Shown: positions 1,070 through 31,849 of the stretch, piece after piece | Numbering within the stretch: the first letter of the stretch is position 1 | Layout of the letters: each line of letters opens with the position of its first letter | Virus record (IMG/VR): IMGVR_UViG_3300018048_002465 | Span: 1-47,451 of that record | Strand: one strand, 5' to 3' | Length of the DNA stretch: 47,451 bases | Source: a virus | Program-made: the position numbers and the translations under genes | Notes under the pieces: generated by a model | What the model saw: the letters and a program-made list of their open reading frames with translations, nothing else | What the model was told of the DNA's origin: nothing | Database searches by the model: none

Positions 1070-1402
1070 ATGTACTACAAAAACATTTTTGACTTATTTG
1101 ATGAATCGTTCTTTGGAACAACTAGAACGAGAACAACTACGACAGTAGATGGTAAAACTTATGAAATGGCTCTTCCAGGATTTTCAAAAGAAGATGTCAA
1201 AGTAGAGGTTGAGGGTACTATCTTATCAATTTTTGCTGAAATTGAAGAAAGCAAAGAAACTAAATGGAGACATTCGTTTCATAAAAGATTTGAGCTTCCT
1301 AACAATGTAGATCCTGAGCAAGTAGAAGCTAAAATGGAAAATGGAATTCTTAGTCTTTCTTTTGGGAAAAGCAAAGAATCAAAAAAAATTACAATTTTGT
1401 AA
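1070..1402 (+). CDS. hsp20: Small heat shock protein (Hsp20/alpha-crystallin)
   Basis: This is an ATP-independent holdase that binds unfolding proteins. The 110 residues are nearly all alpha-crystallin domain. The family's LPGFxKEDVxVxVE strand (about 35-48) is visible, as is the C-terminal VEAKMENGILSLSF block with the conserved ENGxLxL signature. The final IxI motif (K-I-T-I-L) used for oligomer contacts is present at the very end. Hsp20 genes are common in marine T4-like phages. It stands alone between a 150-base leader with strong repeats and its own terminator, so it is probably regulated separately. A DnaJ gene lies 1.1 kb downstream. Confidence 0.9.
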   Translation: MYYKNIFDLFDESFFGTTRTRTTTTVDGKTYEMALPGFSKEDVKVEVEGTILSIFAEIEESKETKWRHSFHKRFELPNNVDPEQVEAKMENGILSLSFGKSKESKKITIL

Positions 1403-2486: not shown

Positions 2487-3296
2487 ATGTCTCACTACGA
2501 TATATTAGGCGTTGAAAAGACTGCAACTCAGGATGAAATTAAAAAGGCTTATAGAAAATTAAGTAAGCAATATCATCCAGATATAAATGGAGGAGATGAT
2601 TCGAGATTTAAAGAGATTGCAGCAGCATACGATATTTTAGGTGACTCTGAAAAAAGAACCAAGTATGATTCTCAGCAGAGTGGTCATGACTTTTTTAGTC
2701 AGTTTGCAAAGGGCAAAGGCCAAAATCATTCAATGTCAGATATATTCGATCAATTTTTTGGAGGACAATTTAGACAGCAAGATCCGCAAAAAGGCCCTGA
2801 TTACAGGGTAGATATGCACGTCTCTTTTGAAGAAGCGTTTAGCGGAACAAAAAAAGAATTTACTATTAATGGTCAAAATCTATCAATCAATTTTGGACCT
2901 GGTTTAAAAACTGGACAAAAATTTAAACTTAAAGGTAAAGGAGGACCACATCCATATAATAGTAATCTGCCAAATGGTGATGTTATAGTTCATATTCAAG
3001 TAATGATCGACGCTAGATTTATTTTACAAGGAAATGATATTTGGATCGAACATACTCTTCCATGGTGGGACATCATGTCAGGTTGTAAAATCATAGGATG
3101 GACTCCAGAAGGTCAGATATCGATTAATGTTCCCAAAGGAAGTAAGCCAGGAGGAACTCTTAGAATAAAAGGCAAAGGATTTCCGATATATAATACAGAT
3201 GGTCGAGGTGATCTTTTATGTAAGGTAAATGGGTTTTATCCTGAGCTAAATGACGATCAAATTGACTTGATAGAAAAAATAAAAGAACATGGATAG
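2487..3296 (+). CDS. dnaJ: DnaJ/Hsp40 co-chaperone (type II, CbpA-like)
   Basis: This J-domain co-chaperone should stimulate host DnaK. The J domain fills residues 1-62, with the HPD tripeptide at 30-32. A short G/F- and Q-rich linker (about 65-105) follows, then the two C-terminal substrate-binding beta domains (about 108-260). The CxxCxGxG zinc-finger repeats of full DnaJ are absent, so it is the shorter CbpA type. T4 uses host DnaK/DnaJ little, so a phage-encoded J protein is notable. It could retarget host DnaK to capsid or tail proteins or to replication complexes. It overlaps the next gene by 8 bases. Confidence 0.92.
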   Translation: MSHYDILGVEKTATQDEIKKAYRKLSKQYHPDINGGDDSRFKEIAAAYDILGDSEKRTKYDSQQSGHDFFSQFAKGKGQNHSMSDIFDQFFGGQFRQQDPQKGPDYRVDMHVSFEEAFSGTKKEFTINGQNLSINFGPGLKTGQKFKLKGKGGPHPYNSNLPNGDVIVHIQVMIDARFILQGNDIWIEHTLPWWDIMSGCKIIGWTPEGQISINVPKGSKPGGTLRIKGKGFPIYNTDGRGDLLCKVNGFYPELNDDQIDLIEKIKEHG

Positions 3297-3546
3297 TTTA
3301 TTTTATAGTTTTGCGGGATCTAATAGTTGGGCGTTCAGTGCAATTATTAATGGCCTAATAGATAAAGATGGATCATATAATATAATTTATGACGCTATCA
3401 TTAAACATCCATCATATGTGATTTTATCAGACGGTGAAGCATCTCATAAAATTAAAGTGATTGATAAAATCATTAACCACTATGAGCAAAAGGAAGAATA
3501 CGAAAAATGCGCAGCGTTACTAAACATTAAAAATAGTATCTTATAA
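3289..3546 (+). CDS. Unknown protein with C-terminal EEYEKC motif (copy B)
   Basis: This 85-residue protein ends in a helix reading INHYEQKEEYEKC (about residues 62-74) followed by a short LLNIKNSIL tail, as in copies A (1659) and C (3840). The N-terminal two thirds share nothing obvious with the other copies. It sits between dnaJ and the bS21 gene, overlapping the first by 8 bases and leaving 2 bases before the second, so all three are probably co-translated. Function unknown. Confidence 0.65.
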   Translation: MDSLFYSFAGSNSWAFSAIINGLIDKDGSYNIIYDAIIKHPSYVILSDGEASHKIKVIDKIINHYEQKEEYEKCAALLNIKNSIL

Positions 3547-3548
3547 AC

Positions 3549-3734
3549 ATGCTCATAGTAAAGGTAGATAAAAAGGGAGGTATTGAAAAGGCTCTTAAAC
3601 GATATAAATCAAAGGTCATTAAGACTAAACAATTAAAAGAACTTAGAGACCAGCAACAGTTTGAAAAGAATTCTCAGAAAAAGCGCAAAAAGATGGCTAA
3701 AGCCAAATATGTCCAAAAGAAATTTGGAAGCTGA
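3549..3734 (+). CDS. rpsU: Ribosomal protein bS21 homologue
   Basis: This 61-residue basic protein has the bS21 pattern. A short strand MLIVKVDKKG is followed by IEKALKRYKSKV, a KELRxxQQFEK helix, a second lysine-rich helix (KKRKKMAKAKYVQKK) and Y54. It is close to full length for the family. Bacterial bS21 sits on the 30S platform near the 3' end of 16S rRNA. In flavobacterial ribosomes, as I recall, bS21 helps to sequester the anti-Shine-Dalgarno sequence, with a contacting tyrosine at about this position. Phages, including marine T4-like ones, are known to carry bS21. There is no Shine-Dalgarno sequence upstream. A second translation factor, the S1-like protein, is encoded at 30566. Confidence 0.85.
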   Translation: MLIVKVDKKGGIEKALKRYKSKVIKTKQLKELRDQQQFEKNSQKKRKKMAKAKYVQKKFGS

Positions 3735-3839: not shown

Positions 3840-4124
3840 ATGAAAAACACGGAAACCATCACAATGAGCGAATACGTTTCAAACTCAGACAGGGATAGCC
3901 TGATGAGAGCATCCTACTATCAAATCACAAGAAATTTTACTAAAACTGTAAATCGCTTCATCGTGTTTAAAGATAACGATCGACTTATAGAAATACCACA
4001 TGGTATTGGACAGCGATCTAAATTTATAGACCTAATGATAGAGTACTTTGAAAAATTAGAAGAATATGAAAAGTGCAATAAACTGATGAAGTTAAAGGAG
4101 CTTGTTATTATGGCAGGCAACTAA
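3840..4124 (+). CDS. Unknown protein with C-terminal EEYEKC motif (copy C)
   Basis: This 94-residue protein carries a C-terminal block IEYFEKLEEYEKC (about residues 65-77) followed by a lysine/leucine helix, the third copy of the module. Its first 40 residues are polar and unlike copies A and B. It follows a structured 105-base leader and is 23 bases before phoH. The chance of three such ends arising within 2.5 kb is small, so a shared binding role is likely, but no partner can be named. Confidence 0.65.
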   Translation: MKNTETITMSEYVSNSDRDSLMRASYYQITRNFTKTVNRFIVFKDNDRLIEIPHGIGQRSKFIDLMIEYFEKLEEYEKCNKLMKLKELVIMAGN

Positions 4125-4147: not shown

Positions 4148-4834
4148 ATGCCAAGAGGACAAAGAAGTTCAAATACGAACCAGCAAGATAAACTTAAAAA
4201 TGTACAATTAAGACAATCTCAAAGAAAATATTTAAATACTATAGAATCTAATGAAATAACTTTTTGTTATGGTCCAGCTGGAACATCAAAGACATTTACA
4301 GCATGTTATGCTGGATTAAAATTACTACAAGAACGAAAGATTAAAGAAATAGTACTTTGTAAACCTATTCAAGAAGCTGGCGAAAAGTTAGGATTTCTAC
4401 CTGGAGATAAAGAAGATAAGGTAGATCCATATATGAAATCATATAAATCTAACATCGAAAAAATAATTGGAATCGAAGAAACAAAGGTTTTATTTGACAA
4501 AAAAATTATTCGTTTTGAACCTCTTGCATATATGAGAGGAGACACATTTGATGATGCTCTTATGATACTAGACGAAGCACAAAATGCTACATTTAAACAA
4601 CTAATGTTATTTGTAACTAGAATGGGAAGAGATTCTAAAGTAATTGTGACTGGAGATGTAAGTCAACATGATATTGCAGCATCTAGAGTTTCTCTTCCTG
4701 ATTTTATCTCATTGATTGAAAGTATTAGAGGAATAGGTAAACATATATTTACCGAAGCAGATATAGTTCGCGCTAAAATTTTACAAGATATAGTAAAGCG
4801 ATACGACAAATGGAGAACAGAAAACGAGAAATAA
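4148..4834 (+). CDS. phoH: PhoH-family P-loop ATPase
   Basis: PhoH-like proteins are P-loop NTPases related to superfamily 1 helicases and are often linked to RNA metabolism or phosphate stress. They are very frequent in marine phages. Walker A is GPAGTSKT (42-49), Walker B is MILDEAQN (about 139-146), and a sensor-like VTGDVSQHD follows near 166. At 228 residues it is one compact domain without the PIN or KH additions of longer homologues. The basic N-terminal tail may bind nucleic acid. The last 25 bases overlap the acetyltransferase start. RNase HII lies two genes on, giving an RNA-related neighbourhood. The cellular role of PhoH in phages is not settled. Confidence 0.9.
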   Translation: MPRGQRSSNTNQQDKLKNVQLRQSQRKYLNTIESNEITFCYGPAGTSKTFTACYAGLKLLQERKIKEIVLCKPIQEAGEKLGFLPGDKEDKVDPYMKSYKSNIEKIIGIEETKVLFDKKIIRFEPLAYMRGDTFDDALMILDEAQNATFKQLMLFVTRMGRDSKVIVTGDVSQHDIAASRVSLPDFISLIESIRGIGKHIFTEADIVRAKILQDIVKRYDKWRTENEK

Positions 4835-5247
4835 TTATTAGAGAGGCAATTGGTGAAGATCTAAATAGGATTTCAGAAATTTATAGCCAACATTTTGGGC
4901 ATACAGAGCCAGCAATAAGCCAATGGTGGAAAATCCAATCAGATAATAATATTCAATATATTGTTGCGACAATTGATGATAACGTAGTTGGAGTTTCTAG
5001 CTTAATAACAATTAATAAGTTAATTAGGTCTGGAAACAGAGTGGCTCTTATAGAAGATGTTGCAGTAGACGAAAAATATATTGGATATGGTGTCGGTAAA
5101 GAAATGATAGAATATCTTAAAGAGCTAGCATTAACAAAGAAGTGTTATAAAACTATCCTTAATTGCTCTGATGAAAATATTGGATTTTATGAAAAATGCG
5201 GATTTTACCGTTCAGAAAATCAAATGAGGTGGGATAGACCAAAGTAG
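4810..5247 (+). CDS. GNAT-family N-acetyltransferase
   Basis: This predicted acetyl-CoA-dependent acetyltransferase has 145 residues covering one GNAT domain. The V-A-V-D-E-K-Y strand (about 84-90) is followed by IGYGVGKEM (91-99), which matches the R/Q-x-x-G-x-G/A acetyl-CoA loop with Y in place of the usual arginine or glutamine. A late NxxxxxFYEKCGF segment (about 124-134) is the typical C-terminal signature. The substrate cannot be read from sequence. Phage GNATs can modify host proteins or small molecules. It overlaps phoH by 25 bases. Confidence 0.8.
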   Translation: MENRKREIIIREAIGEDLNRISEIYSQHFGHTEPAISQWWKIQSDNNIQYIVATIDDNVVGVSSLITINKLIRSGNRVALIEDVAVDEKYIGYGVGKEMIEYLKELALTKKCYKTILNCSDENIGFYEKCGFYRSENQMRWDRPK

Positions 5248-5296: not shown

Positions 5297-5923
5297 ATGA
5301 AAAAAATACTTCTTAAATCAAGTTTACACGGAGATTTAAATACTGTCGAAATTGGAGTCGATGAAGCTGGAAGAGGAGCACTTGCTGGGCCAGTAACAGT
5401 AGCAGCATGTATCATGCCCTTTGGGTTTCAGCATGAGCTTATTAAAGATAGCAAACTTTTAAATGAAAGTCAACGCGCAGAAGCTCGACAGCTGGTGTTA
5501 GATAATGCAATTGCGTACCATATAGAGCACATTCCAGTAGAACAGATTGAATCAACAAATATTCTAAAGGCAACTTTGACCGGAATGGAAAAATGCCTTC
5601 GCGAAGTATATAAAGACCGGGAATTTGATTTTGTTTTAGTAGATGGCGATCAATTTCATGGGTTTGAAGGAGTACCATATAAAACTGTAATTGGAGGAGA
5701 TAATCTATATGTTCCTATTGCAGCTGCTTCTATTTTGGCAAAAACAGAAAGAGACATGCTTATGAAAGTTTTAAGTAAAGATTTTATGGAATATGGATGG
5801 GGAAGTAATAAAGGATATGGCACAGCTCAACATCGGAAAGCAATTGAAAATTCTGGAGCAACTGAACACCATAGACCCTCATTTATTAGCCATATGTTAA
5901 CAAAAACCTCAACCCTATTTTGA
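5297..5923 (+). CDS. rnhB: Ribonuclease HII
   Basis: It cleaves the RNA strand of RNA-DNA hybrids and can remove single ribonucleotides. Motif I is GVDEAGRG (20-27, catalytic D22 and E23). The third acid is D116 in LVDGD, a late LAKTERD segment holds the fourth, and the family's GYGT..H...........HRPSF end is present. At 208 residues it is full length. T4 itself uses a different nuclease (Rnh, of the FEN type) for primer removal, so this is a non-homologous replacement or addition. A small GCGATC/GATCGC hairpin (5268-5273, 5287-5292) lies against the start codon. The TGA overlaps the next TTG start. Confidence 0.93.
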   Translation: MKKILLKSSLHGDLNTVEIGVDEAGRGALAGPVTVAACIMPFGFQHELIKDSKLLNESQRAEARQLVLDNAIAYHIEHIPVEQIESTNILKATLTGMEKCLREVYKDREFDFVLVDGDQFHGFEGVPYKTVIGGDNLYVPIAAASILAKTERDMLMKVLSKDFMEYGWGSNKGYGTAQHRKAIENSGATEHHRPSFISHMLTKTSTLF

Positions 5924-9444: not shown

Positions 9445-9497
9445 GGTGAAACTATTCTAGAATTCTTCATATATTATTGAACTTAAATTTATTGGAT

Positions 9498-10943
9498 ATG
9501 AAATTAATGGACGCACTTCGTCAAGAGGACCGTTTAACTGAAAACGGTATGGCTACTAACTCAACTTCTTTGAGCGCAGTAGTTGATCTATTTTATAATA
9601 TTGGAGCAATGCGAGGTCAAGATAAAGATCGCTTGCTTTCAGACTTTTCAAAAGCATTTTATCAAGATCCTGAGAGAGCAATGAAAATTTTGTTTTGGGT
9701 TCGTGATGTTCGTGGAGGCGCTGGAGAGCGACAAATCTTTAAAGACATTCTTGTTTACTTAGCCGATAATCATTATGAGGTCGTGGCTAAAAACTTGTGG
9801 TTAGTACCACAATTCGGCAGATGGGATGATTTGCTTGCACTTGAAGGCACTAAGTGCGAAGCATATGGATTTGGTATGATTCGTGAGGCACTACTTGGTC
9901 CGACCCGTAACTCATTATGTGCTAAATGGATGCCACGTCAAGGTAAAACTGCAGCTAAGTTGCGTAACTTTATGGGTCTAAGCCCAAAAAGATATCGTCA
10001 GCTTCTAGTTAATTTGACTCGAGTGGTTGAACAGCAAATGTGTGCTAAAGAATGGGATGCTATTGAGTTCTCTCAAGTGCCATCTGTTGCTGCAGCTCGT
10101 TACCAACGTGCATTTATGAAAAATGCTAATGAAAGCTACACTAACTACTTGGAATCTCTTAAGAAAGGCGAGACTAAGATTAATGCTAGCTCAGTTTACC
10201 CATACGATGTGATTAAATCATTGCAATTTGGAAATGAAGAAGTAGCGACTGAACAGTGGAAGGCATTGCCTAATTACTTAGAAGGTGCGAATGACATGAT
10301 TTTGCCAATGGTCGACGTTTCTGGTTCAATGAGTTGTGCTGCAGGTAATAATGCAAACGTAACCTGTTTGAATGTTGCTATCTCGTTGGGTATGTACATT
10401 GCTGAGAGAAATGAGGGTCCTTTTAAAGATGCTTTCTTGACATTTAGCGGCGAACCTGAACTTGAAGTTTTGAGTGGAGATCTTAAAGATCGTTACCGTC
10501 AAATGTCAAGCTCTGATTGGGGCATGAACACTAATCTTGAAGCGGCTTTTGATTTAGTATTAGATCAAGCAAAGAAGCACAACATATCACAGGATCAAAT
10601 GCCTGACAAGATCTTGATCCTATCAGATATGCAATTTGATGAGGCGACTGCTTCTCGTCGATGGATGGGCGAATCGGCAGTGACTGAATGGAATCCAACT
10701 GCTCAGCAAATGATTGAGACCAAGTACCGTGATGCTGGTTACAAGATGCCAAAGATTGTCTACTGGAATATTCAGTCTCGTAGAGGTGATGTGCCAGTTG
10801 CATTTGACAAAACTGGAACTGCATTGATCAGCGGCTTCTCACCTGCGATTATGACTTCAGTCTTAACTGCAAAAGAGTTTAATCCAGTATCAATTATGGA
10901 TGAGACCATTTTAAGCGACAGATATGCTGATGTAAAGATATGA
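9498..10943 (+). CDS. Ro60/DUF2828-like protein with vWA domain
   Basis: This 481-residue protein has two parts. Residues 1-260 are helical, like the HEAT-type ring of TROVE/Ro proteins (RDVRGGAGER.IF and a W..PQFGRWDDLL block). Residues about 268-440 form a vWA domain with an intact MIDAS, D273-x-S275-x-S277 in MVDVSGSMS. Ro proteins bind Y RNAs and misfolded RNAs. DUF2828 proteins share this layout, though RNA binding is not shown for phage members. I prefer ATG 9498 to the upstream TTG 9477. Codon use differs from its neighbours, with many CGT arginine and TTG leucine codons. A structured non-coding region follows the gene. Confidence 0.7.
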   Translation: MKLMDALRQEDRLTENGMATNSTSLSAVVDLFYNIGAMRGQDKDRLLSDFSKAFYQDPERAMKILFWVRDVRGGAGERQIFKDILVYLADNHYEVVAKNLWLVPQFGRWDDLLALEGTKCEAYGFGMIREALLGPTRNSLCAKWMPRQGKTAAKLRNFMGLSPKRYRQLLVNLTRVVEQQMCAKEWDAIEFSQVPSVAAARYQRAFMKNANESYTNYLESLKKGETKINASSVYPYDVIKSLQFGNEEVATEQWKALPNYLEGANDMILPMVDVSGSMSCAAGNNANVTCLNVAISLGMYIAERNEGPFKDAFLTFSGEPELEVLSGDLKDRYRQMSSSDWGMNTNLEAAFDLVLDQAKKHNISQDQMPDKILILSDMQFDEATASRRWMGESAVTEWNPTAQQMIETKYRDAGYKMPKIVYWNIQSRRGDVPVAFDKTGTALISGFSPAIMTSVLTAKEFNPVSIMDETILSDRYADVKI

Positions 10944-30565: not shown

Positions 30566-31849
30566 ATGTCAGAACAACAACGTAAAAGGATTACTACCTT
30601 AGATAAGGGATCCTTAGTATTAGAAGAAAAGTCTACTTCTAACGTAATCGAACAAAAGACTGAAGAAGAAAATTGGCTAACTCCTGAAGGAGATTTTGAC
30701 TGGGAGGCATATGAAGCAACATGTATTACCAGGACTCGCACGCCAAATCCACACATTAAAACTAACGGAAGAGATAAAGTTTTTTCAAGAGAACCATATG
30801 CTCAACAGCTATATGATACCTATTCAGCGCACGAAGATTCAATTAACCTAAGAACAATTATTAATTTAGGAGACATTGTTGATGGAAAAATATATGGTGT
30901 GAGTGAACATTGGATGACTGTTGATGTCAGTTATCGAGAAATGGTTTACGTAAAGCTTTCAAAAGAACCTGGATCGGTTTTAGAAGATTATAAGCCAGGT
31001 GATGAAGTTGCAGTATTAATCACTGATCCTGGAAATACAGGAGTTAATTCGATGGTTATTGGTTCTATTTCTGGAGGAATGAAGCAAAAAGTATTCATAG
31101 ATCTTCAGGCTGGCATTGATACCGCAGATACTGCATGGGTTGGTAAAGTTTCACATATGATTGAAAATGGAGGTTATATTGTTAATATCCAGGGAGTTGA
31201 ATGTTTTATGCCAGGTTCTCTTGCCGGAATTAATAAATTACATGATTTTGAGTCAATTATCGGCGAAGAATTATATGTTGTTCCTGTTAGTTTTTCAAAT
31301 GAACGTGGAACAATTGTAGTTTCTCATAGAAAATACCTACAGGCGATGATTCCTACAGAAATAGATAATCTTAAAGCTGATATTGAAAATAAGCAAGCTG
31401 GATCTGTTACTGGAACTGCTAAATATGGTGTATTTGTTGAATTTAATAATTGTTTAACTGGAATGATCCATATAAATGATTTAGATGAAGAAACTTTAAA
31501 GAACTTTAAATCTAGACAAATTAAACCAGGAGATTCTGTAGAATTTTGGGTAAAAGATATTATTAGTAATTCTAAGATTACTTTAAGCCAAAAGGCCGAG
31601 ACGATTAACAATCCCTGGAAAGATATAGAAAAAAGATTTAAAATTCCATGTGTTGTAGAAGCCAAAGTAAAAACTAAAAAAGATTATGGTATTTTTATAA
31701 CCGTAGAAGAAGGTTTGGTTGGATTATTACACGTTAGTGAATTGCCAGATGGTATCATAGATCTTTATAACTCGGGAGATTCCATAACTGTACAAATAAG
31801 TAGAGTCGATAAAGATTCTCAAAAGATCTTCTTAAAACTTCCTGAATAA
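30566..31849 (+). CDS. Ribosomal protein S1-like protein with four S1 domains
   Basis: This 427-residue RNA-binding protein has four S1 OB-folds, at about 102-170, 189-254, 278-343 and 361-425. Domains 3 and 4 are canonical (KYGVFVEFNNCLTGMIHIND; KDYGIFITVEEGLVGLLHVS). The N-terminal 95 residues are not S1 fold. They contain DFDWEAYE (43-50) and a later YDTY, which resemble the N-terminal region of Bacteroidota ribosomal S1 as I remember it. This suggests capture from such a host. S1 feeds mRNA lacking a Shine-Dalgarno sequence to the 30S subunit, so the protein could favour phage messages. It is shorter than host S1 (six domains). Confidence 0.85.
   Translation: MSEQQRKRITTLDKGSLVLEEKSTSNVIEQKTEEENWLTPEGDFDWEAYEATCITRTRTPNPHIKTNGRDKVFSREPYAQQLYDTYSAHEDSINLRTIINLGDIVDGKIYGVSEHWMTVDVSYREMVYVKLSKEPGSVLEDYKPGDEVAVLITDPGNTGVNSMVIGSISGGMKQKVFIDLQAGIDTADTAWVGKVSHMIENGGYIVNIQGVECFMPGSLAGINKLHDFESIIGEELYVVPVSFSNERGTIVVSHRKYLQAMIPTEIDNLKADIENKQAGSVTGTAKYGVFVEFNNCLTGMIHINDLDEETLKNFKSRQIKPGDSVEFWVKDIISNSKITLSQKAETINNPWKDIEKRFKIPCVVEAKVKTKKDYGIFITVEEGLVGLLHVSELPDGIIDLYNSGDSITVQISRVDKDSQKIFLKLPE

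Follow-up and report, generated by a model that had tools for sequence, protein, structure and literature searches.

A phage bS21 of the Bacteroidia type without the host feedback signal, linked to a bS1-like gene

Ribosomal protein bS21 of the Bacteroidia type is encoded by a 47-kb virus record, as comparison of its sequence confirms (IMG/VR record IMGVR_UViG_3300018048_002465; the whole stretch of 47,451 nt is called the window here). The leader of this phage rpsU gene does not carry the strong autoregulatory Shine-Dalgarno (SD) sequence that most of its host counterparts have, and a gene for a bS1-like protein is linked to it. Chen et al. (2022, PMC9723584) have already put forward the core idea, a phage bS21 with Tyr54 that substitutes in the ribosome. 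New here are the absence of the feedback signal and the linkage to a bS1-like gene, both beyond the earlier accessible papers; in the literature outside subscription journals we found no account of the rpsU leader contrast or of a conserved bS21/bS1 pair. Our preferred explanation, with a probability of about 0.55, is that the phage protein is exchanged into the host 30S subunit. It would keep the ribosome blind to SD sequences, escape the feedback and perhaps have the bS1-like protein as a helper.

An earlier note on this DNA had described the 61-residue product as clearly bS21-like, with the contact tyrosine of flavobacteria at position 54. Both statements held. The ORF matches PF01165 (4.3e-12; 46 bits, cut-off 27) and TIGR00030 (33.6 bits, cut-off 28.95) above the curated cut-offs, and also PHROG 21469, 'ribosomal protein S21'. 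The top two solved structures are likewise bS21 chains, from 9i5v (2.7e-10) and 7jil (5.1e-7). Residues 1-57 align with chains 9i5v_9 and 7jil_z without gaps. Entry 7JIL is the Flavobacterium johnsoniae ribosome (PMC9723584), and Tyr54 of the window protein falls in the same column as F. johnsoniae Tyr54. The latter stacks on A1534 of 16S rRNA (PMC9976891). Because the alignment is ungapped, Tyr54 of the phage protein is the equivalent of this stacking tyrosine. The note had named a best match outside bS21, or a non-equivalent residue 54, as grounds for giving up its reading; the alignments gave neither. Like Bacteroidia-type bS21 that sequesters the anti-SD, the window protein is thus aromatic at the site of F. 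johnsoniae residue 54. The features discussed are collected in Table 1.

Table 1. Position of bS21, its neighbours and the bS1-like gene in the window
Feature	Position	Strand	Remarks
Hsp20-type small heat-shock protein	1070..1402	+	conserved neighbour, also in L002
DnaJ-like protein	2487..3296	+	J domain and DnaJ_C, without zinc-finger match; conserved neighbour
85-aa protein, EEYEKC motif at C-terminus	3289..3546	+	directly upstream of bS21
bS21 gene leader	3529..3548	+	without SD, dG +0.7 kcal/mol with ACCUCCUUUCU
Phage bS21 (rpsU-like), 61 aa, Tyr54	3549..3734	+	ATG-to-stop ORF; PF01165, TIGR00030, solved structures
94-aa protein, similar C-terminal EEYEKC motif	3840..4124	+	directly downstream of bS21
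PhoH-like ATPase	4148..4834	+	conserved neighbour
GNAT acetyltransferase	4810..5247	+	weak RimI resemblance far under cut-off; missing at same place in L002
Ribonuclease HII	5297..5923	+	conserved neighbour
bS1-like protein, 427 aa, four S1/OB domains	30566..31849	+	co-linear with bS1 domains 1-4

Among the ribosomal proteins that viruses encode, bS21 is the most frequent. Two viral scans returned 155 bS21 loci, which form 38 clusters at 90% identity. Residue 54 is tyrosine in 34 clusters and histidine in 4; the second scan used an N-terminal pattern that leaves residue 54 out, although Tyr54 remains favoured because matches are ranked by their similarity to the query. Some groups in the Bacteroidota sample have Arg54 (72 sequences); the relevant host set is the group with an aromatic residue 54 (37 sequences: 35 Tyr, 1 Phe and 1 His). 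All 148 Bacteroidota genomes searched have a bS21 of their own, so the phage copy would replace a host protein rather than fill an absence. In the tree, the phage bS21 clade that includes the window (support 99/92) nests with flavobacterial-type hosts (97/96), which places the window protein within the Bacteroidia type, on an alignment of only 64 columns.

The window comes probably from a tailed phage with a flavobacterial host, and it is likely that the host belongs to the Bacteroidota. No more than 32 phage records match its baseplate wedge protein, 25 of them with a named bacterial host genus. The phages infect Prevotella, Tenacibaculum, Chryseobacterium or Flavobacterium in 23 of these 25 cases and Sphingomonas in the other two. 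One contig with a Tyr54 bS21 (L082, with L181 and L182) is filed under a Prochlorococcus single-cell genome. It also bears a 962-aa ORF whose C-terminal region presumably resembles secreted proteins of Bacteroidota. From this resemblance we read the contig as a contaminating Bacteroidota phage and do not count it as a Tyr54 case outside that phylum.

The statement that phage genes here have no SD holds for the window. A pairing energy with the 16S tail of -8 kcal/mol or lower was found for 1 of 55 genes. The mean over the 55 genes (-0.99 kcal/mol) is no better than in shuffled leaders (-1.06 kcal/mol). Adenine is enriched at -3 and at -11 to -14, and no other phage-specific element was found in the window leaders. 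Neither were tRNA genes found in the window. Bacteroidota-type promoters (TTTG-N18-22-TAnnTTTG) occur four times in it against 2.5 expected, and 30 of 100 shuffles reach this count, which gives no evidence for them.

In F. johnsoniae, an extended SD allows ribosomes free of bS21 to translate rpsU, and bS21 thereby represses its own synthesis (PMC9976891). Leaders with dG of -12 or lower precede 24 of the 37 aromatic-54 host genes, against 1 of the 38 viral clusters; the value for the window gene is +0.7. The size of this contrast is more trustworthy than its P values (Fisher, 2.7e-9; Mann-Whitney, 1.2e-8), which overstate independence since the sequences are related. The sole viral exception is a His54 bS21 (L003, 6001-6192). 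Its SD of -13.5 stands out from the other genes of that record, and this rpsU may still be under host-type autoregulation.

Three flavobacterial-type chromosomal rpsU copies with a weaker SD (L162, L180 and L196) branch beside the phage clade. Two of them, L162 and L196, are second copies in genomes where the first has a strong SD. These three genes are possibly phage-derived paralogues. A Flavobacteriaceae MAG (G002) has three bS21 genes (L087, L089 and L090); only one has a strong SD, and the tree puts the remaining two close to the phage clade.

Without a strong autoregulatory SD, the phage bS21 should be made whatever the bS21 saturation of the ribosomes, while host rpsU stays repressed. 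We infer that the phage protein escapes the feedback and at the same time feeds it against the host gene. However, SD sequences are absent from almost every gene of these phages, so the missing signal may reflect a general leader style rather than selection.

The second gene is far downstream and has no SD either (dG +1.6). Residues 101-423 of its product match the tandem domains 1-4 of Escherichia coli bS1, in the same order (phmmer, 1.8e-34; profile, 1.8e-47). Foldseek ranks E. coli bS1 from the complex that delivers mRNA to the 30S first (9gut_B, 2e-25), from a predicted model of modest quality (pTM 0.36). The score against the rpsA equivalog TIGR00717 is far below the cut-off (139.8 against 577 bits), and for this reason we call the protein bS1-like, although that cut-off is likewise missed by 9 of 11 Bacteroidota bS1 (rpsA) genes whose match is almost full-length. 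An N-terminal F-x-W motif is invariant in the bS1-like proteins. It is present in 9 of 9 bS1 sequences from Bacteroidia and absent from two other Bacteroidota bS1 and from the Prochlorococcus protein.

The bS1-like protein is conserved in 33 viral loci. All seven other records of the window's TKQ type that continue for at least 32 kb beyond bS21 have the gene, 24-30 kb away (27 kb in the window). The TRQ-type records of the same extent have it in none of eight cases. Pairing of bS21 with bS1 is thus not universal, as the TRQ lineage is without any S1 domain. Counted from the other side, bS21 appears in only 1 of 23 records with the bS1-like gene. We do not take this as weak linkage, as most of the others appear to stop short of the expected bS21 site 24-30 kb upstream. 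A 212-kb record with the bS1-like gene has bS21 too. In that record the bS1-like gene is split into three reading frames (L306 / L315-L317, contig 75475-76682), by an assembly error or a real lesion.

In F. johnsoniae assays, SD-less initiation reached twice the amplitude when bS1 was added (PMC9976891). A joint role of bS21 and the bS1-like protein in translation is plausible. The gene sits among tail genes, and its product could instead be a virion protein or another RNA-binding protein.

The earlier note had proposed that phage bS21 could lock ribosomes into the SD-blind mode. This proposal loses its force, as 35 of the 37 host proteins in the aromatic-54 set already have Tyr54 and the Y54A mutation has a modest effect in F. 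johnsoniae (a strong-SD reporter gave 70% more output, and the colonies were normal; PMC9976891). Since the host bS21 carries the same tyrosine, the phage copy would maintain the host's own SD-blind state. In the explanation that we prefer, a functional phage bS21 most likely enters the host 30S, where it takes over the site of the loosely bound host protein. Its C-terminus with Tyr54 would keep the 16S 3' tail in the pocket of bS21, bS18 and bS6. The ribosomes would then remain SD-blind and initiate on SD-less messages, as the SD-less phage mRNAs require. The phage gene, without the strong autoregulatory SD, would be translated even when ribosomes are replete with bS21. The surplus would keep host rpsU repressed through the known host circuit, which would favour phage over host bS21. 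Finally, the four-domain bS1-like protein may help to bring SD-less phage mRNAs to such ribosomes. Within this explanation we infer the incorporation into ribosomes, the exploitation of the host circuit and the cooperation with bS1.

A bolder form, in which both proteins take over the ribosome, is only tentative. Here a feedback-free bS21 would keep SD-blindness and silence host rpsU by way of the feedback loop of the host itself, and a shortened phage bS1 would recruit the SD-less phage mRNAs. If it is true, both of the ribosomal proteins that select mRNA would be viral in Bacteroidota ribosomes.

The N-terminal half of the protein bears on a different reading. At residues 21/23/24/28 the window has S/V/I/Q, the phage-type set (mostly S/V-I/I/Q in phages), where hosts have R or K, F, D or E, and T or V. 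According to the proposal of a specialised ribosome by Chen et al. (2022), this divergent half (residues 21-28) would make ribosomes select phage over host mRNAs. The window and its viral relatives, with this set or close variants, diverge near the published positions (PMC9723584). However, the leaders have no phage-specific element besides their richness in A, and the divergence may be no more than the sign of a distinct phage lineage whose specificity is unchanged. We consider this reading unlikely.

The neighbourhood of the gene can be read in terms of simple supply. The closest relative (L002, bS21 79% identical) keeps the order Hsp20, DnaJ, 85-aa protein, bS21, 94-aa protein, PhoH and RNase HII. 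The C-terminal EEYEKC is common to both proteins that flank bS21 in the window and to L002 4095-4382; by this motif, these small proteins are perhaps paralogues. The GNAT neighbour was a candidate for RimI, the enzyme that acetylates bS18 and would make contact with the pocket of bS21, bS18 and bS6. We rejected this, as the neighbour scores 27 bits against TIGR01575 (cut-off 86.4) and is not conserved in L002. Further downstream, the window encodes a 488-aa protein (9477-10943) that matches the RNA-binding PHROG 850 and Pfam DUF2828/DUF7788.

Chaperones and RNA enzymes as neighbours would suit a phage that needs many new or repaired 30S subunits as host rpsU expression falls. bS21 would then be the limiting part, with unchanged specificity. 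In F. johnsoniae, bS21 is essential and promotes SD-less initiation (PMC9976891), and the phage gene has no autoregulatory SD. The earlier note had also suggested that the phage protein replaces a host bS21 that limits 30S numbers. This fits better than locking, and the missing autoregulatory SD sharpens it. Nevertheless, the conserved phage-type residues 21-28 and the linked bS1-like gene stay unexplained, and as a full account we find supply alone improbable. A blocking of host ribosomes, or an RNA-binding role elsewhere, is very improbable: E. coli ribosomes are nearly inactive with the bS21 of pelagiphage HTVC008M (PMC6375957), but that test used a mismatched host, and the conserved C-terminal contact residues of the window protein point to the native site.

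Compared with known systems, the window protein is closest to the Tyr54-bearing bS21 of Bacteroidetes jumbo phages, for which substitution in the ribosome was proposed (Chen et al. 2022, PMC9723584). It shares with them the aromatic residue 54 (Tyr in 54 of 61 there), flavobacterial bS21 as nearest relative, and the divergence around residues 21-28. However, their bS21 lies on the reverse strand within a module of terminase (TerL), capsid and protease, whereas that of the window is co-directional between DnaJ/orf85 and orf94/PhoH. The inference of late expression made for those phages is not transferable to the window because of this different context. Furthermore, they have no other ribosomal proteins, in contrast to the linked bS1-like gene here. 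It seems that the TRQ sequences represent their clades; the window is of the TKQ type.

In huge phages, a possible rpS1 was described, linked to rare use of SD, and also rpS21, and a takeover of translation was proposed (Al-Shayeb et al. 2020, PMC7162821). Megaphage records with bS21 also match the bS1-like protein of the window. In contrast to those phages, synteny of the two genes is conserved here within one lineage, both products show features of the Bacteroidia type, and the window bS21 has no N-terminal extension.

The bS21 of HTVC008M, the one phage bS21 assayed in ribosomes, enters those of E. coli, and about 5% of translation in vitro is then left (Mizuno et al. 2019, PMC6375957). From this result, incorporation could poison rather than redirect the ribosome. 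It is also a phage bS21, but of alphaproteobacterial origin and not of the Bacteroidia type.

Finally, the host protein of F. johnsoniae has the same Tyr54 and C-terminal contact region (McNutt et al. 2023, PMC9976891). However, its rpsU has the extended autoregulatory SD, which the window gene lacks. The circuit of bS21, the 16S 3' tail, the rpsU SD and bS1 has been worked out in this species, which makes it a direct testbed for such phage proteins. Specific predictions, open to falsification and absent from the published substitution model, follow from the linked bS1-like gene and from the SD contrast.
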